Shown one piece after another: positions 2,451 to 48,360 of a DNA stretch of 64,000 bases. Within the stretch, counting starts at the first letter, position 1. Each line of letters begins with the position of its first letter. The stretch comes from Agromyces mediolanus (GTDB taxonomy: Bacteria; Actinomycetota; Actinomycetes; Actinomycetales; Microbacteriaceae): the NCBI RefSeq assembly GCF_023715325.1, contig NZ_JAMBNX010000004.1:310001-374000 (forward strand), given 5' to 3'. The notes beneath the pieces are model-generated. The model saw nothing but the letters and a program-made list of their open reading frames with translations. It was not told where the DNA came from and searched no databases. The translations under genes and the position numbers were made by a program.

Positions 2451-2453
2451 GCG

Positions 2454-6674: not shown

Positions 6675-6747
6675 TCGGCGCCATCCGCCCCGTTCTGCGT
6701 CGGTGCCGCGCATGATGGTGGTAACGGCCGCCGGGGAGTCTGCGGCC

Positions 6748-6996: not shown

Positions 6997-7020
6997 CCCC
7001 ACCCCGCCCACGCCCCCATC

Positions 7021-7208
7021 CCCCTGCCGCGCCCCCCCCTACCGCGCCCCCCAACCGCTGAAGGGGTCATTTTGCGGCATCCGCAGCGGGCTCCGGCCAT
7101 GGCCATGCCGGAAATCGACCCTTTCGGCAACAGCGGCACGCAGCGGAGCGGGGCGGGGCGAAGCGGGGCCCGGCGGGGCGGGGCCCGGCGGAGCGGGGCC
7201 CCGGCGGC
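7021..7208. repeat. GC-rich repetitive gap between csrA and fliW
   Basis: The gap between the convergent csrA and fliW genes. It contains an imperfect inverted repeat (GAAGGGGTCATTT at about 7061 against GAAATCGACCCTTTC near 7110) followed from 7141 by degenerate tandem copies of a GCGG(A/G)GCGGGGC-like unit interleaved with GGGGCCCGG. It may serve as a shared terminator region. No coding signal was seen. Confidence 0.5.
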
Positions 7209-7577: not shown

Positions 7578-8452
7578 CGCAGGAAGTCCATCAGGGTCGG
7601 GCGCACGGCGCGGGCGGTCGCGGCGAGCGCGGCCTGGTGCGCGATCTCGCTCGTCGAGAGGTCGATGGCGGCCGTCGCGACGTCGATGTCCTCGAGCCGG
7701 CTGCGGGTCGCCTCGAGGTCGATCTTCTGCGCGAGGTTGCGGTCGACCGCCGCGAGCACCGTCGAGTGCCGCGCTCCGGCGGCCGCGTGCGCATCGAGCA
7801 CCGCCGAGCGGTGCGCGTCGAGCGCGGTGATCTCGCCGCCGATCGGGGTCCCCGCCCGGAGCCCGGCGGAGATGCGGTCGATGGTCGCGAACACCGAGCC
7901 CGCGCCGACGCCGAAGACGCTCGAGCCGTCGACGTCCACGCGCACCGTGGTGCCGTCGTCGATGCGCCGGTCGACGGTGCCGGCGCCGCCCGAGAAGGCG
8001 TAGCCCGCGTCGAACGCGGGCTGGTCGGAGGTGCCGGCGAACACCTGCCGGCCCCCGTAGCTCGCGTTCGCCTGGGCGAGGAGCAGATCCCGCACCGCGT
8101 CGAGCTCGGCGGCGATCGCGTCCTTCTGCGGCTGCGAGAGTGCGCCGTCGTTGGAGCCCTGCAGGGTGAGGTCGCGGGCGCGCCCGAGGAGCGAGGTGGT
8201 CGACTGCAGCGCCGAGTCGATCGTCGAGAGCCAGGCGTTGCCGTCCTGGATGTTCCGGGAGTACTGCAGGTTCGCGCGCTGCTCGGCCCGGACCTGCATC
8301 GCGCGGGCGGTGGCCGCCGGATCGTCCGACGGCTTCGTGATGGCCTTGAAGTCCGTCGCCCGCTGCTGCGCCCTGGCGAGCTGGGATGCCGCGAGCTGCA
8401 GATTGCGCGCCGAGGACTGCGCGATGGACATCGTGGTGACGCGGTTCATCAT
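7574..8452 (-). CDS. flgL: Flagellar hook-associated protein 3, FlgL
   Basis: FlgL (292 aa), the flagellin-like junction protein between hook and filament. The N-terminal helix MNRVTTMSIAQSSARNLQLA and the KAITKPSDDPAATARAMQVR segment are typical flagellin-D0/D1 features; the C-terminal helix (LEDIDVATAAIDLSTSEIAH) matches as well. Two tandem ATGs (8452, 8449) follow GGGAGG at a good distance, located in the end of flgK. The stop overlaps the fliW start. Confidence 0.95.
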   Translation of the reverse strand: MMNRVTTMSIAQSSARNLQLAASQLARAQQRATDFKAITKPSDDPAATARAMQVRAEQRANLQYSRNIQDGNAWLSTIDSALQSTTSLLGRARDLTLQGSNDGALSQPQKDAIAAELDAVRDLLLAQANASYGGRQVFAGTSDQPAFDAGYAFSGGAGTVDRRIDDGTTVRVDVDGSSVFGVGAGSVFATIDRISAGLRAGTPIGGEITALDAHRSAVLDAHAAAGARHSTVLAAVDRNLAQKIDLEATRSRLEDIDVATAAIDLSTSEIAHQAALAATARAVRPTLMDFLR

Positions 8453-8455
8453 CGC

Positions 8456-9874
8456 CTACCTCCCGACCAGGCCGGTGCGGGTGATCAGCACCTCGAGCAT
8501 CTCGTCGATCGCGGTGAACACGCGCGCCGCCCCCTGGTAGGCCGTCTGCGCCGTGACGAGCGCGAGGTTCTCCTCGTCGAGATCGACGGCGGACTCCGAC
8601 TGCTGCCGCCCCACCGCGTCGACGAGCCCGAGCGCGGCGACCTGCGCCCGCGAGGACTCGGCCCCGGAGGCGATGCCGACCTTCGCGACGAATGATCCCC
8701 ACACCTCGTCGGGCGAGCCGGCGGCGCGTCCGATGCCGGCGATCCGGTCGGCGATCGTGCCGTCGTTCGGGCCGGCGCCGGGGAGCGCGGCGGCGATCCC
8801 CGAGACGTCCGTCGGCACGACGCGCAGTCCGAGGGCGGCCGGCACACCCGGGTCGAAGGTGAAGAAGTCGAGGCCGGTGGTGTCGCCCGGGGTGGCCCCG
8901 GTGCGGTGCACGGCGTTCACCTGCTCGGCCAGGGCCGTCGCGACCGCGTCGTAGGAGGCGAGCGCCTCGTTCAGCGAGCCGCCGGTGCCGCCGGACGCGG
9001 GCGCGAGCATCGAGAGCGCTCCGGCGAGCTCGCCCCCGTCGAGGTCGATGGCGGTGCCGGGACGGCGCTCCCACTGCACGGAGACCGCGCCGGTGCCGCC
9101 CGGCGTCGTCGGGCCGGCGAGCACGAGCCGGTTGGCGGTCGTGCCCGTGACGATCGGGTTGCCCGCGACGAGGACGTCGACGGTGCCGTCGCCGCGGTCG
9201 TACACCTGGCCGCCGGCGATCGAGGCGAGGTCGGCGGCGACCCGGTCGCGTTCGTCGAGGAGCTCGTTGACCTGCCCGCCGGCGAGCGTGGAGCGGCGGA
9301 TGGTGTCGTTCAGCTCGGCGACGCGGGCGGCGGCGTGGTTCACCTGGTCGACCATCGTCGAGGCATCCTTCCGCAGCGCCGTCCACTGGGAGGAGACCGC
9401 GCGGGAGCCGTCGGCGATCCGCGAGGCGAGCGTCGCCGCCTGCTGCAGCACGACCGCGGCCGCGGCGCCGTCACCGGCCGCGTTGCCGAGGTCCTGCCAC
9501 GACGCCCAGAACTCCTGCATGCGCGCGGAGAGGCCGTCCTTGCCGGGTTCGCGGAGGCCGGTCTCGAGGGTCTCGAGCGCGGCGGCGCGGGTCGCGTGGT
9601 AGCCGGAGCTCGCGGACGCCTCGCGCACCCCCTCGTTGAGCATCTCGTCCGCGAGGCGGGCGATGCCGGTGACCATGACGCCCTGGCCGGGACCGGGCCG
9701 CGAGAGCGCGAGCACACCGATCGGCCCCGCGACGGGCGAGGAGGCGAGCTCCGCGCGCTGTCGGGTGTAGCCGGGGGTCTTCACGTTCGCGATGTTCTGG
9801 CCGGCGACGTCGACGGCGGTGCGCGCGGCGTTCAGGGCGGTATGGCTCGTGTTCAGCCCGCCGAAGGTGCTCAT
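8456..9874 (-). CDS. flgK: Flagellar hook-associated protein 1, FlgK
   Basis: FlgK (472 aa), the first junction protein on the hook. The N-terminal rod-type signature is clear (AGQNIANVKTPGYTRQRAEL at about residues 25-44), the central helical part includes the FlgK-type LNDTIRRSTLAGGQVNELLD segment, and the C-terminal helix (VTAQTAYQGAARVFTAIDEM) matches the flagellar basal-body C-terminal domain. Its ATG shares one base with the flgN stop. It is followed by flgL after three bases. Confidence 0.96.
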   Translation of the reverse strand: MSTFGGLNTSHTALNAARTAVDVAGQNIANVKTPGYTRQRAELASSPVAGPIGVLALSRPGPGQGVMVTGIARLADEMLNEGVREASASSGYHATRAAALETLETGLREPGKDGLSARMQEFWASWQDLGNAAGDGAAAAVVLQQAATLASRIADGSRAVSSQWTALRKDASTMVDQVNHAAARVAELNDTIRRSTLAGGQVNELLDERDRVAADLASIAGGQVYDRGDGTVDVLVAGNPIVTGTTANRLVLAGPTTPGGTGAVSVQWERRPGTAIDLDGGELAGALSMLAPASGGTGGSLNEALASYDAVATALAEQVNAVHRTGATPGDTTGLDFFTFDPGVPAALGLRVVPTDVSGIAAALPGAGPNDGTIADRIAGIGRAAGSPDEVWGSFVAKVGIASGAESSRAQVAALGLVDAVGRQQSESAVDLDEENLALVTAQTAYQGAARVFTAIDEMLEVLITRTGLVGR

Positions 9875-10356
9875 CAGGTCTCCTCGTCCACCAGGGTGGC
9901 TTCAACGACGTCGCGGGTGAGGCCGCGGGCGTCGTAGGTCGTGGTGCCGCGCCGGGCGGCGTGCTGGGCGACGCCGGCGGGCCGGGCCGCTTGCTTCAGC
10001 AGCTGCTCGTTCGCGTCGCGGAGCTCGGTGATCTCGCCGGTCACCTCGCGGAGGGCCGCGAGGTGGGCGAGCAGGATGTCGCGCCAGACCTCGTCGCCGA
10101 CCGCGTCGGCGAGCTCCTGGAGGGTCGCCTCGGCGGACAGCTGCAGCTCCTCGGCGACCTCGGCGGACTCGACGGCGCGGGCGAGCCCGACCTCCTTCAG
10201 GCGGGCGGTGAGGAACTCGATCTCGTGCGCCGCGCGGCCGAGCCAGCGGCGCCGGTCGGTCGCGAGCAGCAGGCGCTCCACCTCGAGCTTGTACAGCAGC
10301 ACATCGAGCAGCTCCCGCTCGCGCCAGAGCACGGCGGAGAGTTCATGCAACGACAT
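9874..10356 (-). CDS. flgN: FlgN-like export chaperone for FlgK/FlgL
   Basis: A 160-aa, mostly helical protein immediately before flgK. The N-terminal region (LSAVLWRERELLDVLLYKLE) follows the FlgN pattern of paired leucine-rich helices, and FlgN chaperones FlgK and FlgL. The start MSLHELSAV at 10356 is preceded by GGAGAGG at good spacing; a longer frame upstream would run through a palindromic repeat and is rejected. FlgN is poorly conserved, so the call is from pattern, length and position. Confidence 0.8.
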   Translation of the reverse strand: MSLHELSAVLWRERELLDVLLYKLEVERLLLATDRRRWLGRAAHEIEFLTARLKEVGLARAVESAEVAEELQLSAEATLQELADAVGDEVWRDILLAHLAALREVTGEITELRDANEQLLKQAARPAGVAQHAARRGTTTYDARGLTRDVVEATLVDEET

Positions 10357-10436
10357 GCGGTCCGCCTCTCCTCGATGCATCCGACTATCGGCCGTGCGCC
10401 CGCCCCCGGTAAGCGCGGCCGCCCGTTCCCCTTTCC

Positions 10437-10470
10437 GACTTGCCCGACTTTCATGAAAGTCGGGCAAGTC
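10437..10470. repeat. Perfect 34-bp palindrome (family A hairpin repeat, copy 1)
   Basis: A perfect palindrome centred on TCATGA. The half-site is GACTTGCCCGACTTTCA. The inner 28 bp (half TTGCCCGACTTTCA) recur twice near 45.0 kb. Here the outer arm is GAC/GTC. It lies between the divergent flgN and the gene at 10629, about 80 bp upstream of flgN, so a regulatory role for the flagellar operon is possible here. Confidence 0.85.
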
Positions 10471-10628
10471 CGCACAAAGGCGGACCGTGCCGCGCATGTA
10501 TTTCTTGCCGGGATGTCCGCACTAATGAGGACACCGCTGAGGACACCGCTTCGCGGCCCGGCGGGTGGACCCGCACCCGCTGCACACGATCCAGGGCCCG
10601 CGAGGGCCGAACCCGAGGAACGAGCACC

Positions 10629-11360
10629 ATGCCCGCAGAGCAGACCACGACCGCCCCGCACCCGCTGGAGGGGTGGACCGAACGCCGCGATCACCCGGAC
10701 GGCGTCTCGTACTGGCGCCGCGGCGAGCGCCACCGCACCGTCGGCTGGGCGGTCGACCGCGCCGGCGTTCGTGAGGCGTGGCTCTTCGGCCGTCGCATTC
10801 CGACCCCGGCGCACCCCGAGCAGCTGGGCTTCGCCGGGCAGGCCGCCGACGGCGTGCTCGAGTGGCAGGACGACGACGGCCGGGTGCGCGTGCTGCAGTG
10901 GACCACCGCGGGCGGGGTCGAGGAGACCCGCTATCTCGGCACCGACGGCGCACCGGAGGCGCACCCGGGCGGGTACCACCGCGTCCGCGTGCTGCGCACC
11001 GGCGAGCGCCGGTACTACGAGGACACGGCCGACGGGCCGCGCCTGCACCGCCTGGACGGCCCGGCACTCGAGGACGCGGGCAACGCGCGCCGCTCGCGCT
11101 GGCTCGAACACGGCGCCCCGGTCACCGCTCCGGAGGAGCTGCTGAACGCGGCCAAGCGCCGCGCGCTGGCCGCATGGAACCGCGGGGTGGACGCTCCGGC
11201 GCACGTGCTCGCCGAGGCGGATGCCGAGCGCATCGCCGCCGTCGTCGCGGCCGAGCCCGACTGCGAGCTCTCGTGGGAGCTGTCGATCGCGTTCCCCACC
11301 CCATGGATCGCCGGGATCCGACGCGCCGGGCTCGCCGAGCGTCCCCCAGTCCGGGGGTGA
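10629..11360 (+). CDS. Hypothetical protein with HRLDGPA-type repeat motif
   Basis: A 243-aa protein of unknown function. Residues around RLHRLDGPALEDAG followed by WLEHGAPVTAPEE resemble the MORN-like 'HRLDGPA...WY.NG' units found in many uncharacterised bacterial and phage proteins; a weaker unit, YWRRGERHRTVGWAVD, is near residue 30. There is no signal peptide or membrane segment, so it is probably cytoplasmic. The ATG at 10629 follows GAGGAACG. It stands alone between flgN and the HA-repeat gene. Confidence 0.7.
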   Translation: MPAEQTTTAPHPLEGWTERRDHPDGVSYWRRGERHRTVGWAVDRAGVREAWLFGRRIPTPAHPEQLGFAGQAADGVLEWQDDDGRVRVLQWTTAGGVEETRYLGTDGAPEAHPGGYHRVRVLRTGERRYYEDTADGPRLHRLDGPALEDAGNARRSRWLEHGAPVTAPEELLNAAKRRALAAWNRGVDAPAHVLAEADAERIAAVVAAEPDCELSWELSIAFPTPWIAGIRRAGLAERPPVRG

Positions 11361-11367
11361 ACCCCGG
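11351..11367 (+). terminator. Short GC hairpin over the stop codon
   Basis: CCGGGG (11351-11356) pairs with CCCCGG (11362-11367) around a GTGAA loop that contains the TGA stop of the preceding gene. There is no U-tract. It may act as a weak terminator. Confidence 0.4.
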
Positions 11368-11623
11368 GGGCTCCGCGGGGCGGCCAGCCCCTCGGATGCC
11401 CGGAATCACGCGGATCCGCCGGGGGTGAGAGCGCGATCCCGAAGCGGATTCGTCAGGGTCCCTTCCGACGTTCTTGCCCAAGCTGTGCAATGGCTGTGAG
11501 AATCGCCGCAGCGGCCGGTTCACCGGCGTTCGGATTCGGGTTCCGAATGCCTCCGGTCGCCTCGGCGACCGCGGGGGCGGTCGCCGTGGCGTGCGCGCAG
11601 CGCCGCCGGATTCGGGGTATGGA

Positions 11624-13525
11624 ATGGGCGACGACAGCTCGGCGCGGACGCGGCTCGCGTCGCGGCCCGGCATCGCCGCCGTGCGCCCGCGCAGCGAGGC
11701 GCCGCTGCCCCCGCGCACCGTCCTGGCGCCGAGGCACGGGAGCGCCCTGCACGACGGCGACGCCGAGTGGGAGGCGCGGGTCGACCGCCTGCGCGCGCAC
11801 CTCGGCGCGACGGGCCGTCCGCCGCGGGACGCCTCTGGCGCGCCCGACGCCGAGCGGGCCACCGCCCGCTGGGTGAAGCGGCAGCGCGAACTGCTCCGCA
11901 CGGGCGCCCTCGCCGAACGCCGGCTGCGCCACCTCGACTCGGTCGTGCCCGGCTGGCGCGACCCGCGCGGCACCGAGTGGCACGGCACGGCCGTCGCCGT
12001 GGGGCTGCACCTCGCCGAGACGGGGGCGTACCCGGCGCCGAGCGCCGACGACGAGGTCGAGCGACGCCTCGCGACCTGGCTGCGCACGCAGCGGCGTGCC
12101 GAGGCATCCGGCCGTCTGGCGCCCGATCGACTCGCCTGGCTCGAGCTCAACCTGCCCAGCTGGCGCCGCCCCGCCGACGAGGACTGGGGCGACACCGTGG
12201 CCGCCATCGCCGGCTTCATCGCCGAGACGGGTCGTTTCCCGCGCGAGACGGCGAACGACGAGCCGGGAGAGCGGCGGCTCGCGGGCTGGCTCCGCCGGCA
12301 GCGCGAGGCCGCGGCCGACGAACGACTGGACGACGAGCGTCGTCGGGCACTGGACGACGCCGTGCCCGGCTGGCTCGACCCGGCCGCCGCGCGGTGGACC
12401 CGCACCGCGCGGCGACTCGCCGGCTGGACCGCGGCGCACGGCCGCCCTCCCTCGAAGCACGCCGCCGACCCGGTCGAGCGCCGGCTCGGCGAATGGCTCG
12501 CCGGGCAGCGCCGGCTCGCCGCCGCGGGGTCCCTGCCCGAGACGCGGACGGCGCGCCTGGACCGCTCGGTGCCGGGCTGGCGCGAACGACCGGATGCCGC
12601 GTGGCGCGCCCGCCTCGAGGAACTCACCGCCTTCGTCGCGGAGGCCGGTCGCGCGCCGGCGCGGTCGAACGACGCCGGCGACGACGAACGCCGCGCCGCA
12701 GCCTGGCTCGCGGAGCAGCGCACGGCGGCGCGCGCCGGCCGACTGAGCGAGGCGCGACGCACCCTGCTCGATCGAGCGGTCGTCGGCTGGTTCGACGACG
12801 AGCGCGACTGGCGCATGCAAGCCGACCGGCTCGCCCGGCGCCTCGCCACCGGCGGGAAGATCCCCGCGAGCCACGCCGACGACTCCGAGGAACGTGCCCT
12901 GGCCAGGTGGCTGCAGCGCCAGCGGAGCCTCGCCGGGAGCGGCGGGCTCGACGAGTCCCGGGAGCGCTGGCTCGACCGTCAGCTGCCCGGCTGGCGCGAT
13001 CATCGGCTCACTGCCTGGGAGCACACCGCCAACCGCCTCCAGGCCTTCCGCACCGAGCACGGCCGACTGCCGGCGCGGGGCGCCGACGCGACGGCCCAGG
13101 AGCTCGAGCTCGGCGTCTGGTTGAACAACCAGCGCTCGGCCGCCCGCCGCGGCGGGCTGTCGGCCGAGCGGGAGCGGTGGCTCGACTCCCGCATCCCGGA
13201 GTGGCGCGACCCGCACCTCGCGAGCTGGCTCCGCCGCGCCGCGGAGGTCGCGGACTACCTCGCGGAGCGCGGCCGGCTGCCCTACGAGCGCTCGACCGTC
13301 GAACGCTCCAGGCGCCTCGGCACCTGGCTGCAGACGCAGCGGCGCGCGCACCGCGGCGGCACGCTCGACGCGATCCGGATCGCCTGGCTGGACGTGAACA
13401 CGCCGGGCTGGGCCGGCGAGGGCAGCGGCCCGAGGCCGGTCCCGCCGTCGGAGCCGGCGACGCCCCAGCGCGCCTCGACCGCGCGACGGCTCGGCGAGGA
13501 CGACGAGCTGCCGCGCATCGCCTGA
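11624..13525 (+). CDS. Protein of eight tandem helicase-associated (HA) domains
   Basis: A 633-aa protein built almost wholly of eight repeats of about 68-70 residues. Each begins with a Trp (EWEARV, EWHGTA, DWGDTV, RWTRTA, AWRARL, DWRMQA, AWEHTA, SWLRRA), continues with a helix, G(R/K)xP, an ERRLxxWLxxQR helix and ends LDxxVPGW. This is the pattern of the helicase-associated domain usually found C-terminal to DEAD-box-like helicases. No helicase motifs are present here. HA domains are thought to bind nucleic acid, so a DNA/RNA-binding array is a reasonable guess. ATG at 11624 is chosen over a TTG 150 nt upstream because the intervening codons look non-coding. Confidence 0.8.
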   Translation: MGDDSSARTRLASRPGIAAVRPRSEAPLPPRTVLAPRHGSALHDGDAEWEARVDRLRAHLGATGRPPRDASGAPDAERATARWVKRQRELLRTGALAERRLRHLDSVVPGWRDPRGTEWHGTAVAVGLHLAETGAYPAPSADDEVERRLATWLRTQRRAEASGRLAPDRLAWLELNLPSWRRPADEDWGDTVAAIAGFIAETGRFPRETANDEPGERRLAGWLRRQREAAADERLDDERRRALDDAVPGWLDPAAARWTRTARRLAGWTAAHGRPPSKHAADPVERRLGEWLAGQRRLAAAGSLPETRTARLDRSVPGWRERPDAAWRARLEELTAFVAEAGRAPARSNDAGDDERRAAAWLAEQRTAARAGRLSEARRTLLDRAVVGWFDDERDWRMQADRLARRLATGGKIPASHADDSEERALARWLQRQRSLAGSGGLDESRERWLDRQLPGWRDHRLTAWEHTANRLQAFRTEHGRLPARGADATAQELELGVWLNNQRSAARRGGLSAERERWLDSRIPEWRDPHLASWLRRAAEVADYLAERGRLPYERSTVERSRRLGTWLQTQRRAHRGGTLDAIRIAWLDVNTPGWAGEGSGPRPVPPSEPATPQRASTARRLGEDDELPRIA

Positions 13526-13534
13526 CGGGGCGCG

Positions 13535-14584
13535 CTACGGGCGCAGCAGCACCTTGACCGCGCGGCGGTCGTCCATGGCGGCGTAGGCCTCGGCGGCGTC
13601 CTCGAGGGGCAGCTCGAGATCGAAGACCAGTCCAGGGCGGATGGCCCCGGAGCGCACGTCGGGCAGCAGCTCCTCGATGTAGCCGCGCACCGGCGCGACC
13701 CCGCCGTTCACGCCGACGTTGGTCTCGAAGAGCCGGCGCACCGGCAGCTCGGGGCCGCCGTTCGGCACCCCGACGTAACCGACCATGCCGCCCGGACGGG
13801 CGGATCGGATCGCCTGGTCCATGGACTCCTTCGTGCCGACGCACTCGAGCACCCGGTCGGCGCCGAGGCCGCCGGTGACCTCGCGGACCGCCTCGATGCC
13901 GGCGTCGCCGCGCTCGGCGACGACGTGGGTCGCGCCGAACTCGCGGGCGAGCGCCTGACGTTCCGGATGCCGGCTCATCGCGATGATCGTGGTCGCGCCG
14001 AGCCGCTTGGCGGCGATCACGGCGCAGAGCCCGACGGCGCCGTCACCGACCACCGCGACCGCGTCGCCGGGGCCGACCCCGGCCGAGACCGCGGCGTGAT
14101 GGCCGGTGCCCATGACGTCCGAGAGCGTGAGCAGCCCCGGCACCTCGTCGTCGGCCACCGGACCGGGCACGACGGCCAGCGTGCCGTCGGCGAGCGGAAC
14201 CCGCACGCGCTCGCCCTGGGCCCCGTCGGCGAAGCCGCCCTCGCGGTCGGCCGAACCCCACCAGCCGCCGTGCAGGCAGGAGGTGGAGACCCCGTTGCGG
14301 CAGTTCGCGCAGGTGCCGTCGCACACATAGAACGGCGCGATCACGAAATCGCCGGGCCGCACCCGCTCGACGGCGTCGCCGACCGCCTCGACGACACCGA
14401 CGAACTCGTGACCGATTCGGCGCGGCTCGCGGGTGGGGGTCACGCCGCGGTACGGCCAGAGGTCGGAGCCGCACACGCACGCCGCGACGACCCGCACGAT
14501 CGCGTCGCGACCGGTGGAGAGCACGGGGTCGGGCACGGTCTCCACACGGATGTCACCGGGGCCGTGGATGAGGGTGGCGCGCAT
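13535..14584 (-). CDS. Zinc-dependent alcohol dehydrogenase family protein
   Basis: A 349-aa medium-chain dehydrogenase/reductase. Catalytic zinc ligands are Cys38 and His59-Glu60 (GHE), structural zinc ligands are Cys88, Cys92, Cys95 and Cys103, and the NAD(P)-binding GDGAVG motif is at about 180-185. Residues RHPERQALAREFGA form the end of the second strand; the preceding Ser and the basic HPER suggest NADP rather than NAD. The substrate is not predictable. It is transcribed from its own promoter in a palindrome that includes the start codon. Confidence 0.9.
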   Translation of the reverse strand: MRATLIHGPGDIRVETVPDPVLSTGRDAIVRVVAACVCGSDLWPYRGVTPTREPRRIGHEFVGVVEAVGDAVERVRPGDFVIAPFYVCDGTCANCRNGVSTSCLHGGWWGSADREGGFADGAQGERVRVPLADGTLAVVPGPVADDEVPGLLTLSDVMGTGHHAAVSAGVGPGDAVAVVGDGAVGLCAVIAAKRLGATTIIAMSRHPERQALAREFGATHVVAERGDAGIEAVREVTGGLGADRVLECVGTKESMDQAIRSARPGGMVGYVGVPNGGPELPVRRLFETNVGVNGGVAPVRGYIEELLPDVRSGAIRPGLVFDLELPLEDAAEAYAAMDDRRAVKVLLRP

Positions 14585-14612
14585 GAGGGCGAGCCTACGC
14601 CCTCATGCGCGC
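14577..14612 (-). promoter_or_regulatory. 15-bp inverted repeat enclosing promoter and start of the dehydrogenase
   Basis: GCGCGCATGAGGGCG (14577-14591) is repeated inverted at 14598-14612 with a 6-nt centre. On the minus strand the centre reads TAGGCT, a good -10 box, with CTGACG 17 nt upstream as -35 (14615-14620). The ATG start lies inside the downstream arm 7 nt after the -10 box, so the mRNA is probably leaderless. An operator over the promoter is the simplest reading. Confidence 0.65.
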
Positions 14613-14639
14613 ACCGTCAGGTCGTCGTCCGGTCGCCGA

Positions 14640-17600
14640 TCAGGCGCTCCGGCGGCGGCGCACCGCGAGCAGCACCAGGAGGGCGAGCCCGGCGAGGATG
14701 CCTCCCGCCGCGAGCAGCATCGGCAGCAGCGTCTCGACGCCGGTGCGGCTGAGGCCGCCCGGCATACTGCCGTTGCCGCCGTCTCCGGGCACCGAGGCCG
14801 GCACCACGAGCGTCGTCTCCGCAGCGATCACGCGGGCGGAGCCATCCGCCCCGACCCCGCTCGCCGCGAGCGCGTGCTCGCCGGCTGCGAGCGTCTCCGG
14901 GATGGTGACCTCTGCCGAGAACGCGCCTGCGCCGTCGGCCACGGCCGAGCCGAGCGGGGTGAGCGTCGAGTAGACGCCGAGCGCGATCGGCGCGCCGGGG
15001 AGGAAGCCGGCGCCGGAGACCGTCACCGTCTGGCCGCGACGGAGCTCGGCCGGCACACCGCCGAGCACGCCGTGGACGGTGGCGGGCAGCTGCGAGGGCA
15101 GGGCGACCTCGTCGTCCACGGTGAGCGAGAACTCGAGCACGTCACTGCCGTAGGCGTTCGTCGCGACGAGTTCGATCGCGGAGGTGGCGGCATCGCCGAG
15201 CGCGGGCGTGCCGCTCAGGGTCGCGGTGCCGTCGCCGTGGTCGGTGAGCGTGAGCCACGCCGGCAGGCCGCTCGCGGTGATCGCGGCGGCGGGGTGGCCC
15301 GCGACCGACACGTCGATCGAGCGGGCCGCGCCGGGCAGCACGGTGACGTCGGAGTGGGCCGCGAACTCGGGCACCTCGCCGACGGCGAGCGTCGCCTCGG
15401 CGCTGGTGGCCTGGCCGGCCGCGTTCGTGAAGACGGCCCGGTAGCGGGCGCCGTCGTCGCCGAGGGTCGCGGTGAGCGTGAGCGTCCCGGCGGTCGCGCC
15501 GGCGATCGGCTGCCAGCTGGCGCCGCGGTCGCCGGAGCGCTGCCACTGCACGCTGGGGGCGGGGAATCCGCTCGCCGCCGCGGTGAACCCGAGCGCGGTG
15601 CCGGCGACCGCCGAGGCGTCGGCCGGATCCTGCGTCACGGCGGGGGTCTCGTTCACGACGAGGCGGAAGGCCTGCCGGTCGGTCCCGAAGGCGTTCGAGA
15701 CGACGAGATCGAACTCGACCGTGCCGCCCGCTCCCGCCGGCGGCGTGCCGACGAGCTGCTGGGCCCCGGCGGGGCCGCTGAGGCTCAGCCAGGCCGGCAC
15801 GGTGCCGCCGAAGGCGACCGGCCCGGCGACGGGGTAGCCGCCCACGACCGTGATCGGCAGGGAGCCGGCCGAACCGACGGTGAAGGTCGTCGTCGCGGCG
15901 CTCGTGACTGACGGGGCGAGCCCGATGACGAGCCCGATGTCCTGGTGCAGGCTGCCGGCGCTGTTCGCGACGTCGATGCCGAGCAGGTAGGAGCCGGCCG
16001 CCGCGGCGGTGGCGGTGCCCTGCAGTCGCACGCGGCCGCCGCCGAGGTCGCTCGCGGTGATCCCGGCCGGCAGCGCGGAGTCGTCGATGGCGGTCACGCC
16101 CGGCGTCGGCGAGCCGGCGAACGCGATCGTCTCGTCGATCGGCGCGCCGGCGGCGACCGAGTAGCCGGTCGGGCCCGCGTAGGCGGGTGCCGCCACGACG
16201 GTCAGCGTGAAGACCTGCGTGGTCGTCCCCGCCGGGTTGCTGAGCGAGATCACGAACTCGTGCGTTCCGCCGGCGCTCCGCGGCGGCGTGCCGACGAGCC
16301 GCGTGCCGCCATCCGTGGTCAGGCTGAGCCAGGCCGGGGCGCCGCTGAGGGCCGGGGCCTCGGTCGCGGCGGGGTAGCCCGGCGAGAACGTGATCGGGAA
16401 GCTCTGCTCGGTCCCGTCCGCCGTGAAGCTCGCGCGGTCGCTGCTGGTGATGCCGGGCGGTGCGGTGACCGTGATCGTGTAGCTCGTGACGGTGGCGCCG
16501 AAGCGGTTCACGGCCCGCAGCTCCACCGGGAAGGCGCCCGAGGCGGTGGGGGTGCCGCCGAGCTTGGCGGTGCCGTCGAGCTGGTCGGTGAGGGTGAGCC
16601 CGGCGGGGAGGCTTCCAGACGCGAGCTCGATCGCCGGCGCGGGGTCGCCCACGGCCGTGATCGTCACGTCGGCGGCCTGCCGGATGCCGAGCGTCGGCGT
16701 GGTCGAGCCGCTGAAGCTCGGCACGGCGCCGACGGAGATGACGAGCGTCTGCGTCGCCGTCGCCCCGTTCTCCGCGCGGAGGCCGATCGGGTACTCGCCC
16801 GCGGCGTCCGTCGCGGTGCCCGTGATCTTCGCGCTGCCGTCCGGGCCCGCGGTGAAGACGAGGCCGTTCGGGAGCGTCCCAGAGACCCGGCTGATCACCG
16901 GTGCGGGCGAGCCGACGGCGGTGACGTCGAAGTCAATGGGGAGGCCGATGGTCGCGACGAGCTCGTCGGGGCTCGTGAAGGCGGGGATCGCGGTCACGTC
17001 GATGGCGACGGGGACGGATGCCGCGTCGAGGCCCAGCGCGGCGCCGCCGCTGCCGCCCGTGGCGCCCGCGGTGAAGACCCCGGAGACGAGCCCGTTCGCG
17101 ATCGTGACGGACGCGGGCGAGACGGTGGATCCCGCGGGGCCGCTCGCGGTCCAGCCCGCGGACACGCCCTGGAACGCGCTGAGCTCGGCCGCGGGCACCC
17201 CGGCGCCCGCGGAGTCGACGAGGAGCGAGCCCGTGAGCTGAGACGTCGATCCGGAGTTCACCGCGGCGGGGGACGCGACGGCGGACAGCTTCAGGTACGG
17301 CGACGAGGTGCCGGTCGCGATGGCGGCGAGGTCGCACGGTGCGCTGGTCGGGCCGAGGTTGCACCCCCACCAGTTGAGCGTGGCGGTCACGGCGCTCGAG
17401 GCATCCGCGCTGAGCGCCGCGGCGCCGGTGTTGCCCGCGATGCGGTTGTACTGCGCGGTGACCGCGCCGCCCTCGGCCTCGATGGCGGCTCCGCCCGCGG
17501 AGCCGCCCTGCACGGCGTTCCCGGTGAAGGTGCTCGCCGTGATCGTGGCCGGGCCGGACTGCTGACGGACCGCACCGCCGAGCGCCGGGGAATGGTCGCT

Positions 17601-36029: not shown

Positions 36030-36332
36030 CCCACCGACTCGACAGCGCCACTTCGCCCTCCACGCGCCACCTCGAATGGCGCAACGACACCGAAGTGGCG
36101 CTCCCGCGCGCGACCCCGGCCACCGGCACCCACCCACCGACCCGACAGCGCCACTTCACCCTCCACGCGCGCGTCCCCGGCCATCGGCATCCGCCCACCG
36201 ACTCGACAGCGCCACTTCGACGCACCCGCGCCCGCCCCCGGCCACCGGCATCCACCCGCCGACCCGCCAGCGCCACTTCACCCTCCACGCGCCACCTCGA
36301 ATGGCGCAACGACGCACAAGTGGCGCTGGCGG
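36030..36332. repeat. Intergenic array of family B nested hairpin repeats
   Basis: Within this 477-bp gap between clpB and the membrane gene lie four direct copies of G(A/C)CAGCGCCACTTC at 36041, 36144, 36205 and 36266. Two are complete nested hairpins. Copy 1: outer arms AGCGCCACTTCG 36044-36055 and 36091-36102, inner arms GCGCCA/TGGCGC 36064-36069 and 36077-36082. Copy 4: outer arms of 15 bp at 36264-36278 and 36318-36332. The two middle copies have lost the right half. No coding signal. Confidence 0.75.
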
Positions 36333-42458: not shown

Positions 42459-42620
42459 GGTCCGCAGTCTAGGTGCCGGGTCGAGCCGGGCACCATGGGG
42501 TTGTGCTCCGGTTGGAAGCTCTTCCCAGGCGAGGCATCCGTCAGTAGCGTGGGCAGTGCGGCGACGCCGCCGCACAGATTGCGGCCGCGCCGCGCGGCCG
42601 CCTGGCATCCGGGGGGATCC

Positions 42621-44963
42621 ATGGCGAACGAGCCGACAGGCAAGCCGGCGTTCTCGGGAAAGATCGCACTCGACGTGCGCGATGCGGTGGCCGACTGGGC
42701 GCCGTACGAGCAGCCGAAGGCGCCCGAGGGGGCTCCGAACATCCTGGTCATCCTGTACGACGACACGGGCATGGCCTCGTGGTCGCCGTACGGCGGCCGC
42801 ATCAACATGCCGACGCTCGACCGGCTCGCCGAGAACGGCCTGACCTACACGCAGTGGCACACGACCGCGCTCTGCTCGCCGACGCGCTCGACGTTCCTCA
42901 CCGGCCGCAACCACCACGTGAACGGCATGGGCAACATCATGGAGGGAACGAACGGCTTCCCGGGGCTCTCCGGCCACATCCCGGACGAATGCGCCACCAT
43001 CGGCCAAGTCCTGCAGCAGAACGGCTACTCGACGTTCTGGGTCGGCAAGAACCACAACGTCCCGGAAGAGGACGTCTCGGCCGGCGGCAGCAAGGCGCAG
43101 TGGCCGCTCGCGATGGGCTTCGACCGCTTCTACGGCTTCCTCGGCGGCGAGACGAACAACTGGTACCCCGACCTCGTCGAGGACAACCGCTTCATCGAGC
43201 CGCCGTACACCCCCGAGGAGGGCTACCACCTCTCGAAGGATCTCGCCGATCAGACCATCCGGATGATCCGCGACCAGAAGTCCTCGAACCCCTCGAAGCC
43301 CTGGTACACCTGGTTCTGCCCCGGCGCGAACCACGCCCCGCACCACGCGCCCGAGGAGTACATCGACAAGTACCGCGGCAAGTTCGACGACGGCTACGAC
43401 GCCTACCGCACCTGGGTGCTGGAGCGGATGGTCGAGCGAGGCATCCTGCCCGAGGGCACCGAGCTGACCCCGTTCAACCCGATGCCGGAGGACCAGGCCA
43501 ACCCGGCCGACTGGGTGAAGCCGTGGGCGGAGCTCTCCGCCGACGAGCAGCGGCTCTTCAGCCGCATGGCCGAAGTGTTCGCGGGCTTCAGCGAGTACAC
43601 CGACGCGCAGATCGGCCGCGTCGTCGACTACCTCGAGGCATCCGGTCAGCTCGACAACACGCTCATCTTCTACTGCGCCGACAACGGCGCGTCCGGCGAG
43701 GGCTCGCCGGACGGCTCGGTGAACGAGAACAAGTTCTTCAACGGCTTCCCCGACGACCTCGCCGAGAACCTCGCGAAGATCGACGTGCTCGGCGGCCCGG
43801 AGACCTACAACCACTACCCCACGGGCTGGGCGGCGGCGTTCTCGACGCCGTTCCAGATGTTCAAGCGGTACTCGCAATTCTCGGGCGGCACGTGCGACCC
43901 GATGATCGTGCACTGGCCCGCCGGCATCCGCGCGAAGGGCGAGGTGCGTCACCAGTACCACCACTCCACCGACATCGTTGCGACGATCCTCGACGTCATC
44001 GGCATCGAGTTCCCGAGCGTGTTCCGCGGGGTCGAGCAGCGCCCGCTCGACGGGGTCTCGATGAAGTACAGCTTCGACGCGGCCCCCGACGCGCCGACCG
44101 AGAAGCAGGTGCAGTACTACGCGATGCTCGGCACGCGCGGCATCTGGAAGGACGGCTGGAAAGCGGCCGCCATCCACGCCCCGCTGACCGGGCACGGCCG
44201 CTTCGACGAAGATCGCTGGGAGCTCTACCACGTCGACGCCGACCGCTCGGAGTCGACGGACCTCGCCGCCGAGCACCCCGAGAAGCTGCAGGAGCTCATC
44301 GACGCCTGGTTCGCCGAGGCCGAGAAGAGCTTCGTGCTCCCGCTCGACGACCGTTCGGCCCGCGATCAGCTGACGATCGAGCGCCCGCAGGCGGAACCGC
44401 CGCGCACCCGCTACGTGTACTACCCGGACACGGGCGCCGTGCCGGAGAGCGTGGCCGTGAACGTGCGCGGCCGCTCGTTCAAGATCATCGCGGACGTGCG
44501 CGTCGAGGCGGGCACGAGGGGCGTCATCTTCGCGCACGGCTCGCGCTTCGGCGGGCACTCCCTGTTCCTGAAGGACGGCAAGCTGCACTACGTGTACAAC
44601 TTCCTCGGCATCCCGCCGGAGCAGCATTTCGTCTCGGAGGCGCTGGAGCCCGGCGACCACGCGCTCGGCATGGAGTTCGTGCGCGAGTCGGCCGGCGAGC
44701 ACGGCGAGTCGATCGGCACCTGCAAGCTCTACGTCGACGACCAGGTCGTCGCGGAGGGGCCGATGCGGGCACAGGTGGGCAAGTTCACGCTCTGCGGCGA
44801 CGGGCTCTGCGTCGGATACGACAGCGCGGATGCCGTCAGCAGCGAGTACACGAACCCGTTCCCGTTCGAGGGCGGCGAGCTGCTCGGCGTCGCGGTCGAC
44901 GTGAGCGAGGAGCAGTACCTCGACCTCGAGCTTGAGGCGCTCGCCGCACTCGCCCGCGAGTGA
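42621..44963 (+). CDS. Arylsulfatase
   Basis: A 780-aa sulfatase of the formylglycine class. The modification motif CSPTR is at 85-89 (Cys85 becomes formylglycine), with metal ligands Asp47-Asp48 in YDDTG and the GRNHHVNGMG segment after it. No signal peptide is seen, so it is probably cytoplasmic, which is unusual for a sulfatase but common in actinobacteria. GGGGGG precedes the ATG at 42621. It lies divergent to the type III polyketide synthase. The C-terminal 200 residues form the beta-sandwich of the large arylsulfatase group. Confidence 0.93.
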   Translation: MANEPTGKPAFSGKIALDVRDAVADWAPYEQPKAPEGAPNILVILYDDTGMASWSPYGGRINMPTLDRLAENGLTYTQWHTTALCSPTRSTFLTGRNHHVNGMGNIMEGTNGFPGLSGHIPDECATIGQVLQQNGYSTFWVGKNHNVPEEDVSAGGSKAQWPLAMGFDRFYGFLGGETNNWYPDLVEDNRFIEPPYTPEEGYHLSKDLADQTIRMIRDQKSSNPSKPWYTWFCPGANHAPHHAPEEYIDKYRGKFDDGYDAYRTWVLERMVERGILPEGTELTPFNPMPEDQANPADWVKPWAELSADEQRLFSRMAEVFAGFSEYTDAQIGRVVDYLEASGQLDNTLIFYCADNGASGEGSPDGSVNENKFFNGFPDDLAENLAKIDVLGGPETYNHYPTGWAAAFSTPFQMFKRYSQFSGGTCDPMIVHWPAGIRAKGEVRHQYHHSTDIVATILDVIGIEFPSVFRGVEQRPLDGVSMKYSFDAAPDAPTEKQVQYYAMLGTRGIWKDGWKAAAIHAPLTGHGRFDEDRWELYHVDADRSESTDLAAEHPEKLQELIDAWFAEAEKSFVLPLDDRSARDQLTIERPQAEPPRTRYVYYPDTGAVPESVAVNVRGRSFKIIADVRVEAGTRGVIFAHGSRFGGHSLFLKDGKLHYVYNFLGIPPEQHFVSEALEPGDHALGMEFVRESAGEHGESIGTCKLYVDDQVVAEGPMRAQVGKFTLCGDGLCVGYDSADAVSSEYTNPFPFEGGELLGVAVDVSEEQYLDLELEALAALARE

Positions 44964-44977
44964 TCACCGCCTGAAAC

Positions 44978-45017
44978 ACCGAGTTGCCCGACTTTCATGA
45001 AAGTCGGGCAACTCGGT
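44978..45017. repeat. Perfect 40-bp palindrome (family A, copy 2)
   Basis: Half-site ACCGAGTTGCCCGACTTTCA. The inner 28 bp equal copy 1; the outer six bases ACCGAG/CTCGGT differ but remain complementary. It lies just after the arylsulfatase stop. Confidence 0.9.
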
Positions 45018-45022
45018 ATTCA

Positions 45023-45066
45023 ACGCAGGGTTGCCCGACTTTCATGAAAGTCGGGCAACCCTGCGT
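45023..45066. repeat. Perfect 44-bp palindrome (family A, copy 3)
   Basis: Starts only five bases after copy 2. The outer eight bases ACGCAGGG/CCCTGCGT are again complementary. The pair fills the gap between two convergent genes and can form two long hairpins, so it may act as a bidirectional terminator. Confidence 0.9.
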
Positions 45067-45077
45067 GTGGCTCCGGG

Positions 45078-45437
45078 TCAGCCGAGGAGCTTGGCCTTGG
45101 CGGCCGCGAACTCCTCGGGGGAGATGAGCCCCTGCTGCTGCAGCGTCGCGAGCTTCTGCAGCTCGCCGACGAGGTCGACGCCGGGAGCCGCGGCCCCGGC
45201 GGGCGCCGCCGCTTGAGCTGCGGGTGCCTGCGCGGCCGCCGCCTGCGCCGCCGCCTGCTGCATCGCCTCCTGTTGCTGAGCCGCCTGGTACTGCTCGGCC
45301 TCGTACTGCTCCTGCGCCTTCTCCTGCTGGCGCCGGGCCATCCCGCCCGACACCGCGGTCGCAGTGCCGGCGACCACCGCGGTGCGCGCCGCGAGGCCGA
45401 TCAGCCCCGGGCGTCCGACTCGCCTGATGAACGGCAT
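45078..45437 (-). CDS. SHOCT-domain protein
   Basis: A 119-aa protein. Residues 10-32 may be a membrane helix, a Gln/Ala-rich coiled part follows (about 35-85), and the end LQKLATLQQQGLISPEEFAA is a SHOCT domain, a short module of unknown function common in actinobacterial membrane-stress proteins. Often paired with DUF6325, as here; the pair is likely co-transcribed. Confidence 0.85.
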   Translation of the reverse strand: MPFIRRVGRPGLIGLAARTAVVAGTATAVSGGMARRQQEKAQEQYEAEQYQAAQQQEAMQQAAAQAAAAQAPAAQAAAPAGAAAPGVDLVGELQKLATLQQQGLISPEEFAAAKAKLLG

Positions 45438-45446
45438 CGCCGCCTC

Positions 45447-45881
45447 CTACTCCGCCTCGGTGCTCGCCTCGGCGAGCACCTGGTTCACGACCGGCGCGGG
45501 AATCCGCACCGACTCCAGCACGACGCCGCCCGCCTCCGCGAAGCGCGAGGCGAGCCGCTTGGCCCAGACGAGCTCGACCGCGAGCAGCACCGCCGAGGTG
45601 CCGGGCTCGATCGTCTCGGCGAACTCCGCGACGTCGTCGTGCCCGACGAGCCCGCTCGCGGGCAGCTCGAGCGCGGTCACGTCGAGCTCGTCGCCGAGAT
45701 CCTCGATCTCGATCGCCTCGAGACCGCCGTCCTGATCGCGCGAGACGAGCAGCGCGTCGAGCAACCGGATCTGCCCGGCCTCCACGAGCTCCGCCAGCGC
45801 GTCGAGCGTGCCGCCCGAGGGCCGCTCGTTCTGCAGTGCCACGACCACGATCTCGACCGGGCCGTACTCGAATTCCGCCAT
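45447..45881 (-). CDS. DUF6325-family protein
   Basis: A 144-aa acidic soluble protein, MAEFEYGPVEIVVVALQNER at the N-terminus. The pattern fits the actinobacterial DUF6325 family usually encoded with SHOCT proteins. GGGGGG precedes its ATG at a close spacing, a leader shared with several genes of this block. Function unknown. Confidence 0.75.
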   Translation of the reverse strand: MAEFEYGPVEIVVVALQNERPSGGTLDALAELVEAGQIRLLDALLVSRDQDGGLEAIEIEDLGDELDVTALELPASGLVGHDDVAEFAETIEPGTSAVLLAVELVWAKRLASRFAEAGGVVLESVRIPAPVVNQVLAEASTEAE

Positions 45882-45905
45882 GAATCCCCCCTTTTGTCCG
45901 TGAGC

Positions 45906-45951
45906 TTAGGCCCGCTCGCGTTCGGGCGGAACCCCCGAGAGCCGGCGCAGC
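45906..45951. repeat. 46-bp direct repeat, left copy
   Basis: Exactly repeated at 46541-46586. It begins TTAGGCCCGCTCGCG, and on the minus strand it encodes the last 14 residues and stop of the AI-2E exporter. The two copies bracket a 635-bp segment of different composition. Confidence 0.9.
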
Positions 45952-46162
45952 GGCCGCGGCAGCCGGCCCACCTGTTCCACGATCGGCTTCGGGTCACCTG
46001 CACGGTACGCGATGAGCGCGGCGTGATAGGCGGCGATATCCGTGAGCAGACCGGCCGAGACGGGCACGACGACCGAGCGGGCGACCTCATTGCGAAGCAT
46101 CGCTTGCCCGAGCGCCCGCACGGTGCGGCTGTTCCCATCGGTGAATGAAGGCGCTCTCTCCC
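45906..46162 (-). pseudogene. C-terminal fragment of a Fic-family protein
   Basis: The frame reads APSFTDGNSRTVRALGQAML then PVSAGLLTDIAAYHAALIAY before RAGDPKPIVEQ. This matches the end of Fic proteins, whose catalytic loop is HPFxxGNGR: here the His is Ser-adjacent (PSFTDGNSR), the second Gly is Ser, and everything upstream is missing. It then fuses into the 46-bp repeat and so ends with the same residues as the AI-2E exporter. Probably inactive. The antisense frame further upstream is not Fic. Confidence 0.6.
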
Positions 46163-46196
46163 CCGCTGCAAATGCCGGAGAGGCAGAATAGAGGTC

Positions 46197-46520
46197 GTGC
46201 ACGCCTTCAAGACGGTCCACGCGGAGCCCCGGGATTCTGTTGAATCCCCAGTGTTCCGGGTGAACTTCTGGCAGCGCAATTCTCCCGGGGCCGCGTGGAG
46301 TTTGGACGCGTATGTTCTCACCGACATCCGCGACGTCAACGAGGTGCTCCGCTGGGTCGATCTTCATGCCGATGGGCGCCGGTTCGAGGTCTTCGCCGAA
46401 ATGGATCCGGAGCCGGTCGGAGCGTTCCAAGAACCACGCACAACTTCCCTGCTCCGTCTCATCGGAGAGGATCCGAACGCTGGTGATTCGGTCCCGATCG
46501 GCCAATTTATCGAGAACTAG
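46197..46520 (+). CDS. Conserved hypothetical protein inside the insert
   Basis: A 107-aa soluble acidic protein (VRVNFWQR-like core: PVFRVNFWQRNSPGAAWSLD, DLHADGRRFEVFAEMD). I recall similar small proteins in other actinobacteria but no function. GC is about 60% in lines counted, clearly below the neighbourhood. A CAGAAT box (46184-46189) lies 7 nt before the GTG, so it has its own leaderless promoter. It may be the cargo of the insert. Confidence 0.65.
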   Translation: MHAFKTVHAEPRDSVESPVFRVNFWQRNSPGAAWSLDAYVLTDIRDVNEVLRWVDLHADGRRFEVFAEMDPEPVGAFQEPRTTSLLRLIGEDPNAGDSVPIGQFIEN

Positions 46521-46540
46521 TCTCGGGCGGGAGAATTCGG

Positions 46541-46586
46541 TTAGGCCCGCTCGCGTTCGGGCGGAACCCCCGAGAGCCGGCGCAGC
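46541..46586. repeat. 46-bp direct repeat, right copy
   Basis: Identical to 45906-45951. It is the natural 3' end of the AI-2E exporter gene (residues RRLSGVPPERERA and stop), with different sequence on each side of the two copies. Confidence 0.9.
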
Positions 46587-47689
46587 ACTGCGGCGCGCGG
46601 ATCGGGCTCCACGAGCAGCGCCCGCACGAGCAGCGTGAGCGGGATGCACAGGATCGCCCCGATCGGCCCGATGACGAGCGCCCAGAACACGACCGAGAAG
46701 AAGGTGAGCGTGAGGCTGAGGCCGACGGCGTCGCTCACGAACTTCGGCTGCACGAGCACCTGCAGCACCACGTTGATGGCGCTGTAGGCGAGCACCACGA
46801 CGAGCGCGAGCGGCCAGCCGCCGACGACGAGCGCGAGCACGGCGGGCGGGATCACGCCGATCACGAAGCCGATGTTCGGGATGAAGTTCGTGACGAAGGC
46901 GAGGATCGCCCAGACAAGCGGAGCCGGGATGCCGAGCGCCCACAGCAGCAGCCCGTCGAGCACCGCGACGACGGCGCCGAAACTCGCGTTCACGACGTAA
47001 TAGCGGCGCACGCCCATGAAGTACCGGCCCGCGACGACGTCGCCCACGCCGCCGCCGAACACCGCGCCGCCGCGGCGGAAGCCCGAGGCATCCGCCGCCA
47101 TGAAGATGACGTAGGCCAGCACGAAGAAGAACGCCGTCGCGAAGCCCAGCACCGCGTCGGCGATGGAGGCCGCGATCGGCACCAGCGTCGCCGGATCGAG
47201 GGCGGATGCCGCGGCGGAGGCCGTGGCATCCGTCGCGCCGAGCGACTCGAGCCAGCCCGCGATCTCGGTCGCCGTGCGCTGCAGCTCGTCGGCGTAGTCC
47301 GGCAGCATCGCCACGAACTGGGCCGAGGCGACGAGGAGCAGCAGCGCGAGCGCCGCGAGGATCAGATACGCCACCACGATCACCGCGGTCGTCGCGAGCC
47401 AGCTCGGCCACCCCCGCCGCTCGAGGGGGAAGCGCACGGGGTGCGCGATGATCACGACCACCGCGGCCACCGCCGCGGGGGCGAGCACGTCGCGCGCCAT
47501 CCAGACCCCCGCGAGCACGACGACCGTGGCGGCGAGGGTCAGCAGCACCCGGGTGCCGTGCGCGAGTCCGCCCGCTGCAGCGGGCGGCGAGGCGGGCTCG
47601 AGCGGCGAGGCGGGCGCGGGCGCGGGCGGCGGCGCGGGCGCGGGCGGCGGCGCGGGCGGCAGGGCGGGCGCGGGCGGCGGGGCGCTCAT
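46541..47689 (-). CDS. AI-2E family transporter (PerM/TqsA-like)
   Basis: A 382-aa membrane protein. A Pro/Ala-rich N-terminus of about 45 residues precedes about eight membrane segments typical of the family. The central region with GVRRYYVVNASFGAVVAVLD and the FIPNIGFVIGVIPPAVLALV segment is the family hallmark. Substrates vary and the name does not prove autoinducer export. The ATG at 47689 shares one base with the upstream stop. Confidence 0.9.
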   Translation of the reverse strand: MSAPPPAPALPPAPPPAPAPPPAPAPASPLEPASPPAAAGGLAHGTRVLLTLAATVVVLAGVWMARDVLAPAAVAAVVVIIAHPVRFPLERRGWPSWLATTAVIVVAYLILAALALLLLVASAQFVAMLPDYADELQRTATEIAGWLESLGATDATASAAASALDPATLVPIAASIADAVLGFATAFFFVLAYVIFMAADASGFRRGGAVFGGGVGDVVAGRYFMGVRRYYVVNASFGAVVAVLDGLLLWALGIPAPLVWAILAFVTNFIPNIGFVIGVIPPAVLALVVGGWPLALVVVLAYSAINVVLQVLVQPKFVSDAVGLSLTLTFFSVVFWALVIGPIGAILCIPLTLLVRALLVEPDPRAAVLRRLSGVPPERERA

Positions 47690-48360
47690 CAGAACTGCCC
47701 GATCCCCTTGCCGATGACGACGACGCCGATCACGAGGAGCAGCACGGCCATCACGGTCGCGTTGTTGTGCACGAGCCAGTGCCGCAGCGACTCCAGCGGA
47801 CCGGCCATCTTCGCGGAGGCGACGAGGTAGGCGATCACCGGTACGGCGACCGAGCAGGCGGCGACGACCGTGAAGATCACGATCGCGAGGGTCGACTCGC
47901 CTCCGCTGAGACCCGCGGTGCCGATCGTGACCCCGGCGGCGACCGCCATCAGGAGATTCTTCGGGTTCACCGCGGAGAGCAGGAAGCCGAGCCCGGCGCC
48001 CTTCACGGCGTTCAGCTGGTCGATGGCCGACATCCACTTCGGCATCGGCGGCTCGGCGCCGCCCGTCGGCCGCGAACGCCACTGCTTCACCGCGAGGAGC
48101 AGCAGCAGCACCCCGAGCACGATCTGGATGGTGCCCGCGATCGGCTTCGAGGCGTCGGGGTCGGAGGCCGGGATGATCGCGCCGAGCAGGGTGAACACGA
48201 CGACCGCGACGACGATGCCGAGCACCCAGCCGAGGAGGAAGCCGACGCTCGTGCCCTTCGCCTTCGGCGAGAGCAGCATCAGGATGGCCGCGATGATCGG
48301 GATCGGGCTGATCGCGATACCGAGGGCGAGCGGCAGGGTGCTGCCGATGACGCCGTTCAT
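47689..48360 (-). CDS. GAP-family (Sap-like) membrane transporter
   Basis: A 223-aa protein with six membrane segments, starting MNGVIGSTLPLALGIAISPI, the GAP (sulfolipid-1-addressing protein) pattern. Such proteins are linked to export of surface lipids in mycobacteria. AAGGAGG precedes the ATG at 48360, favoured over an upstream start. The ATG overlaps the stop of the DUF1254 gene (ATGA), so the three genes are coupled. Confidence 0.88.
   Translation of the reverse strand: MNGVIGSTLPLALGIAISPIPIIAAILMLLSPKAKGTSVGFLLGWVLGIVVAVVVFTLLGAIIPASDPDASKPIAGTIQIVLGVLLLLLAVKQWRSRPTGGAEPPMPKWMSAIDQLNAVKGAGLGFLLSAVNPKNLLMAVAAGVTIGTAGLSGGESTLAIVIFTVVAACSVAVPVIAYLVASAKMAGPLESLRHWLVHNNATVMAVLLLVIGVVVIGKGIGQF

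Follow-up and report, generated by a model that had tools for sequence, protein, structure and literature searches.

A 589-Base Insert of Recently Acquired Foreign DNA Directly Behind a Transporter Gene of a Soil Bacterium

Structure of the Locus

The window, i.e., the whole 64,000-nucleotide stretch of an Agromyces mediolanus contig that was analyzed, contains an AI-2E family transporter gene on the minus strand (46541–47689; PF01594, E 2.4e-42 over 46544–47692, with the start codon taken from the sequence), and the end of this gene is present twice. An exact 46-nt direct repeat (46/46 identical) lies at 45906–45951 and 46541–46586, 635 nt from start to start, and each copy, read on the minus strand, corresponds to the last 14 codons and the stop codon of the transporter gene (C-terminal residues LRRLSGVPPERERA). 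The inner copy (46541–46586) is the functional 3′ end of the gene, up to the stop codon, with which the inner repeat boundary coincides; the outer copy (45906–45951), judged from its identity and from a junction like that in relatives with an empty site, is a remnant of the same 3′ end beside native downstream DNA. The native downstream neighbor is a DUF6325 gene (45447–45881, minus strand; PF19850), which has the same position in the relatives G030 and G003. Between the copies lies an insert (45952–46540) that is missing in both relatives, with a GC content of 63.8% vs. 72.9% for the window; 2.3% of the 589-bp windows of the contig have a GC content as low. A sequence-only reading had described exact 46-bp repeats bounding a lower-GC segment at a gene 3′ end, both copies encoding the last residues and stop of the AI-2E gene, and this description was borne out, including the spacing of 635, with the insert proper measuring 589 bp.

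An internal fragment of a Fic-family gene, cut at both ends, lies on the minus strand of the insert (45968–46145) and was recognized by 74% DNA identity to genome G021 and by tblastn to Fic homologs. It aligns to an internal stretch of a 410-aa G021 protein that matches Pfam Fic PF02661, from FTDGN to ~110 residues before the end of that protein. The complete Fic motif is HxFx(D/E)GNGRxxR; the fragment begins after the H, reads FTDGNSRTVR in place of FTDGNGRTGR (GNG changed to GNS), and has no Pfam match of its own. The earlier label of a Fic C-terminal fragment did not hold up, as ~110 C-terminal residues are missing relative to the G021 protein, and the piece is, by its sequence, internal, decayed, and dead. 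Since the repeats beside this strongly decayed piece are still exact, its decay is probably older than the insertion. The cargo, on the plus strand, is an intact 107-aa orphan gene with a GTG start (46197–46520; 60.8% GC) that has homologs in Micrococcales and no family match, and a 20-nt gap (46521–46540) separates its stop codon from the inner repeat copy. The same reading had called this gene leaderless, which is not established, given that AGAGGT is found a little ahead of the GTG.

At up to three mismatches, a 32-nt core of the repeat has two sites genome-wide, both at the AI-2E locus, and an exact 23-nt core was absent from IMG/VR. No Rfam match at the gathering score and no tRNA were found in the window. 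Regarding transposons and insertion sequences, neither scanned frame of the insert had a Pfam match, the repeat is 46 nt long, and no inverted pair of at least 18 nt joined the ends of the insert among the 25 longest of 41.

Empty Sites in Related Genomes

The flanks were searched against 60 genomes of the genus, including that of the host (G000). When the window flanks were joined via one repeat copy, the resulting sequence could be aligned to G030 (1189/1265 identities) and G003 (1187/1264 identities), both presumably members of Agromyces, with no gap where the flanks meet. The single repeat copy matches at 45/45 positions in G030 and 41/45 in G003, and in each the outermost base is C vs. 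T in both window copies. The insertion is clean, because both relatives have an empty site with one copy, and it is therefore younger than the split from both, or was imported; the empty single-copy site that the sequence-only reading had named as its own refuting check was thus found, and the reading was not refuted. The AI-2E 3′ ends differ between species, and no second repeat copy was seen at the AI-2E ends of relatives, though most of these have diverged too far for the 46 nt. Among 60 genomes of the genus and 398 of the family, none was found to be a donor that has the cargo beside the same homologous gene, no second copy of the small gene or the Fic piece was detected in the host genome, and the nearest relatives found for parts of the insert have 74–75% DNA identity. 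The 589-base insert is recently acquired foreign DNA directly behind the transporter gene.

The window at ~42500–46900 is ~96% identical to G030, vs. ~91% to its right, and the insert lies ~0.3 kb inside the right edge of this stretch, which is possibly a recombination tract.

The 107-Residue Protein and Its Family

Homologs of the small gene among those aligned share 44–75% identity and belong to Micrococcales. The 107-aa protein has no match in Pfam, NCBIfam, PHROGs, or PADLOC, and among 17 members of its family, a single one gave a weak match to SMC_hinge (E 0.036). Its predicted fold is strand-strand-helix-strand-strand (pLDDT 80.3), for which a PDB fold search gave no match at E 0.001 or better. 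The family is sporadic, occurring in six of the 60 genus genomes and 13/396 of the order (own genome in both counts), and 17 loci come from named genomes, including Cryobacterium, Arthrobacter, Agrococcus, Brevibacterium, and Rathayibacter. Some relatives of the small gene also lie behind duplicated ends of other genes, a recurrence hinting that the gene moves between bacteria by an uncharacterized route. A phage or plasmid origin was considered and rejected, with no phage DNA match and one distant Kocuria plasmid match only; no stretch in IMG/VR matched six peptide patterns of the protein.

In that plasmid match (Kocuria rosea NZ_CP127860.1, 2950–6321; L183), a small-gene homolog lies directly downstream of an integrase, an HTH_26 gene, and a second PF00589 protein, the latter just over the cut-off and annotated as Fis family; a similar divergent gene set adjoins this integrase set. 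In G131, three PF00589 matches stand in a row 5.4 kb from a small-gene homolog.

Parallel Loci With Duplicated Gene Ends

At four further Micrococcales loci, a relative of the small gene lies in an insert of 0.65–4.4 kb with a copy of a host-gene 3′ end on either side. One is G554, where two copies of a CbiQ-type gene end (95% identity over 381 columns, with two differences in the last 285 nt) enclose 1.6 kb that includes the small gene; the corresponding site is single-copy in G662 and G841. Two Brevibacterium genomes add one locus each: L217 has 40 nt of a molybdopterin oxidoreductase gene end on both sides of 650 bp, and L220 has 80 nt of a DUF998 gene end on both sides of 682 bp. In Rathayibacter iranicus (L224), the end of a gene that we take to be lysS from its C-terminal sequence recurs twice, once partly, at a 4.4-kb insert. 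The G554, L217, and L220 inserts are 68–78% alike in their shared part, with related small genes behind three different genes. Gene-end repeat lengths vary from ~24 to 381 nt, and the target genes are unrelated. Additionally, a 6.5-kb locus with a weak homolog (L181) is bounded by a tRNA-Gly-type 3′ end, the tRNA having been read by eye. This recurrence of small-gene relatives behind duplicated gene ends at four other Micrococcales loci, as read from their sequences, is new.

Direct repeats (E 1e-5 or better, within 3 kb on each side) flank the small gene at 9/29 loci, including the window that prompted the idea, vs. 17/295 random positions in three Agromyces genomes unmatched for accessory regions or GC (Fisher p 1e-4). 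The 29 loci exclude L212, L215, and L218, which are the same loci as L176, L178, and L177, and include three from L175. Atypical among the nine are L177, which repeats part of a glyoxalase-type gene in mid-gene, L214, which repeats a whole gene, and L216, where the repeat is the small gene's own end and lies upstream of it; L222, also positive, is unassigned. In L214 (Arthrobacter bussei), a 529-nt duplication (2386–2914 and 4974–5502; 99.8%) surrounds the small-gene homolog, and each copy contains a whole 158-aa gene and has CTGAGGGATC at its end, the same site as in the G772 array described below. Two further candidates were rejected: G036 (L031), tried as a second fragment insertion beside the small gene, is better explained by a tandem duplication of 2 kb that has lost an internal part by deletion, and an L049 match across a junction looks like chance.

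Repeat Boundaries at Stop Codons

The sequence shared past the stop codon amounts to 0 nt in the window, 2 nt in G554 (6 with one mismatch), 3 in L217, 4 in L220, and 1 in L224. It is also 0 nt in a case without the small gene, 170 kb from the window locus, where ~24 nt of a TauE-type gene end, stop included, are duplicated around a ~0.48-kb low-complexity insert (G000:C44:184982–185535, L104; the 185-kb case) that is missing in G030 and G003. These stop-codon cases were picked for lying at gene ends, where L177 does not lie. Elsewhere, the overrun is 6 nt in L214, where the gene is fully duplicated, ~7 nt with a mismatch in L216, and 2 or 4 nt in a G003 case at 200 kb.

Under one rule, a scan of ORF ends found a copy beyond the small gene at 5/27 small-gene loci (471 ORF ends), with the window and the whole-gene duplication of L214 among the five and L224 missed. 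The control, in 1.18 Mb of the same three Agromyces genomes and likewise unmatched for accessory regions or GC, gave 3/2709 ORF ends, the window locus included, after 14 raw matches were sorted by eye to three loci; a copy without the stop, paralog and intragenic repeats, an interspersed repeat, and one chance site present in all three genomes were dropped. Fisher's test of 5/471 vs. 3/2709 gave p 0.003 for these counts sorted by eye, with the window counted on both sides.

In a list, judged by eye, of exact repeats of at least 25 nt within 20 kb (377-kb contig plus 800 kb of two relatives), all but the window repeat were interspersed palindromes or tandem, intragenic, or paralogous repeats, with the sole exception of a 29-nt gene-end copy in G003 (200223/200329). 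There (G003:C1 ~1170223–1170357, L144), the gene end, 29 nt exact, is repeated within 106 nt with a diverged third copy between, and is single in G000 and G030. As a general feature of Agromyces, a wave of such inserts was rejected, as other repeat-bounded differences were, by eye, mostly interspersed palindromes or tandem and intragenic repeats, the 185-kb case in G000 and the 200-kb case in G003 being exceptions.

Selection accounts for the stop codon being part of the repeat but not for the repeat going no further. Where incoming DNA and host have a gene in common but differ in what lies downstream, the repeat is expected to stop at the stop codon or close to it; repeats ending there are unexpected for blind target duplication and fit incoming DNA with the same gene end. 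This boundary rule is predicted by homology-assisted import as well as by an integrative element that restores gene ends, but not by blind duplication. The surprising part is the recurrence; the mechanism is one that we infer.

Origin of the Insert

The locus is read here, tentatively, as a small insert, gained recently, that restored the end of its target gene and resembles a non-autonomous mini-element of the form attR-cargo-attL. Incoming foreign DNA would have carried a matching AI-2E gene end, then the orphan 107-aa gene and the dead Fic fragment, and would have recombined with the AI-2E gene within its final 46 nt, so that the incoming end would complete the gene and the displaced original end would become the outer copy; the integrase of the element would have been lost or would act in trans. 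The inner repeat copy would thus have arrived with the insert, and a site-specific recombinase may have carried out the insertion. The att-site and tyrosine-recombinase interpretation of the sequence-only reading stands in part, with a precise insertion at a gene 3′ end, the end regenerated, and an empty single-copy site; against it, none of the nine genome matches to tyrosine integrase (PF00589) lies on the 377-kb contig C44, the cargo family occurs behind unrelated genes, and the 23-nt core is missing from IMG/VR. No PF00589 match was present in the fetched stretches of G554, G772, and G007; at 650 and 682 bp, the inserts of L217 and L220 leave no room for a PF00589 gene beside the small gene, and the check in L224 covered two ORFs. 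In favor of an integrase are the two PF00589 proteins next to the homolog on the Kocuria plasmid and the three matches 5.4 kb from the homolog in G131. A single integrase using a single att site would not account for the same cargo family behind several unrelated genes, and since AI-2E 3′ ends vary between species, an attP matching 46/46 must come from a very close host. With the integrase evidence mixed, no import donor, and the cargo behind different genes, the integrative element was ranked first with modest confidence, and import close behind.

Import assisted by homology, which needs no integrase, is a possibility to be taken seriously: a donor with the cargo behind the same gene would have recombined homologously on one side and by illegitimate joining inside the gene end on the other (or by bridging between sister chromosomes), leaving a second gene end. 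It likewise predicts repeat ends at stop codons, variable repeat lengths, different targets, and the lack of an integrase, and it accords with an insert ~0.3 kb inside the end of the ~42.5–46.9 kb stretch of ~96% identity to G030, beside a ~91% stretch, although 11% of 4-kb windows are equally similar to G030, which makes the tract weak evidence. The remnant copy in G554 runs into 89 nt diverged from all 11 compared relatives (77–85% identity) while its 285-nt core differs at two sites, in keeping with import, but this mosaic could also be gene conversion; the missing donor and the recurrence of the cargo behind different genes count against pure import. A similar model has been proposed for Vibrio immunity-gene arrays (PMC5361080).

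Target duplication at insertion, by a staggered break with filled-in ends or by template switching, in which end joining would capture the foreign DNA, appears unlikely. The copies are identical, and Ku is encoded in 58/60 genus genomes, G000 included, so end joining is available; yet no LigD was found among six ORFs scanned at the Ku locus, the six measured repeats end 0–4 nt past the stop (6 nt in L214 and ~7 nt with a mismatch in L216), and the by-eye sorting of 14 matches left such second copies at only 3/2709 ORF ends in 1.18 Mb, including the window locus. Very improbable is a larger tRNA-type or gene-end island that kept attL and attR and lost its middle by deletion: the low GC, the Fic fragment cut at both ends, and the existence of larger repeat-bounded loci (L224, 4.4 kb; L181, 6.5 kb) are in keeping with it, but the repeats have stayed exact next to a strongly decayed Fic piece, the insert has no other recognized gene, and inserts just as small (650 and 682 bp) carry relatives of the small gene elsewhere.

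Some integrases enter the 3′ ends of coding genes and restore them, as in the e14/icd type. The window locus is like this type in its duplicated 3′ end, one copy of which completes the gene, in the boundary at the stop codon, and in the single-copy empty site, and unlike it in that no integrase was seen, the insert is only 589 bp, and the same cargo family stands behind unrelated genes. Integron gene cassettes are similar in having one small gene per insert and in the G772 array of such units with a repeated short site; in contrast, the G772 site was not found in the window insert. In orphan immunity-gene arrays, homology-facilitated illegitimate recombination displaces an effector end and puts a new effector-immunity module in its place (PMC5361080); displaced 3′ ends, small orphan genes, and a process that would need no recombinase are shared with the present locus, whereas here both ends of the transporter gene are identical. 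Literature coverage was partial, and within it no report of such gene-end-bounded inserts was found.

How single accessory genes come into the chromosomes of actinobacteria when no integrase is in sight has been poorly accounted for. With a short insert whose empty site is known, and with parallel loci that have cargo and boundary rule in common, the question becomes testable, as the junctions predicted for blind capture differ from those for homology-assisted import, and both from those for site-specific recombination acting in trans. Should the boundary rule hold, recent gene gains could be traced in any genome through duplicated gene ends.

A Cassette-Like Array in G772 and Palindromic Repeats

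In G772 (L175, G772:C1:2736000–2754000), short genes form an array split by a directly repeated site with the consensus G.GCGGTGAGGGATC, at sites 2118 to 17551, and the array holds three copies of the small-gene family. Within these 18 kb, TGAGGGATC or a close form occurs 14 times on one strand and once on the other, compared with 0.35 expected from 100 Markov shuffles (maximum 3), and 7/9 genome-wide matches to the 14-mer site with up to one mismatch fall within 21 kb. Two units are near-identical, one of them with the site on both sides (443 bp), and PF00589 had no match near the array. By its sequence, this looks like a cassette array outside integrons, and it may be a larger result than the window insert.

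A broader and rather doubtful reading makes the 107-aa family the payload of a recombinase-less mobile unit that would insert directly after the stop codons of unrelated genes, for proteins and perhaps for tRNA, throughout Micrococcales and rebuild each gene end; in G772, such units would have formed an ordered array of cassettes that have a short site in common (TGAGGGATC type). If true, such a unit would amount to a gene-cassette system outside integrons.

Palindromes of the AGTTGCCCGACTTTCATGAAAGTCGGGCAACT type form an interspersed family with many copies in Agromyces contigs, represented in the window at 10438–10469, 44982–45013, and 45029–45060, and some strain differences fall between copies. 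Another repeated palindromic intergenic unit, GCGCCACTTC...GAAGTGGCGC, is clustered in the window at 36030–36102 and 36255–36327.
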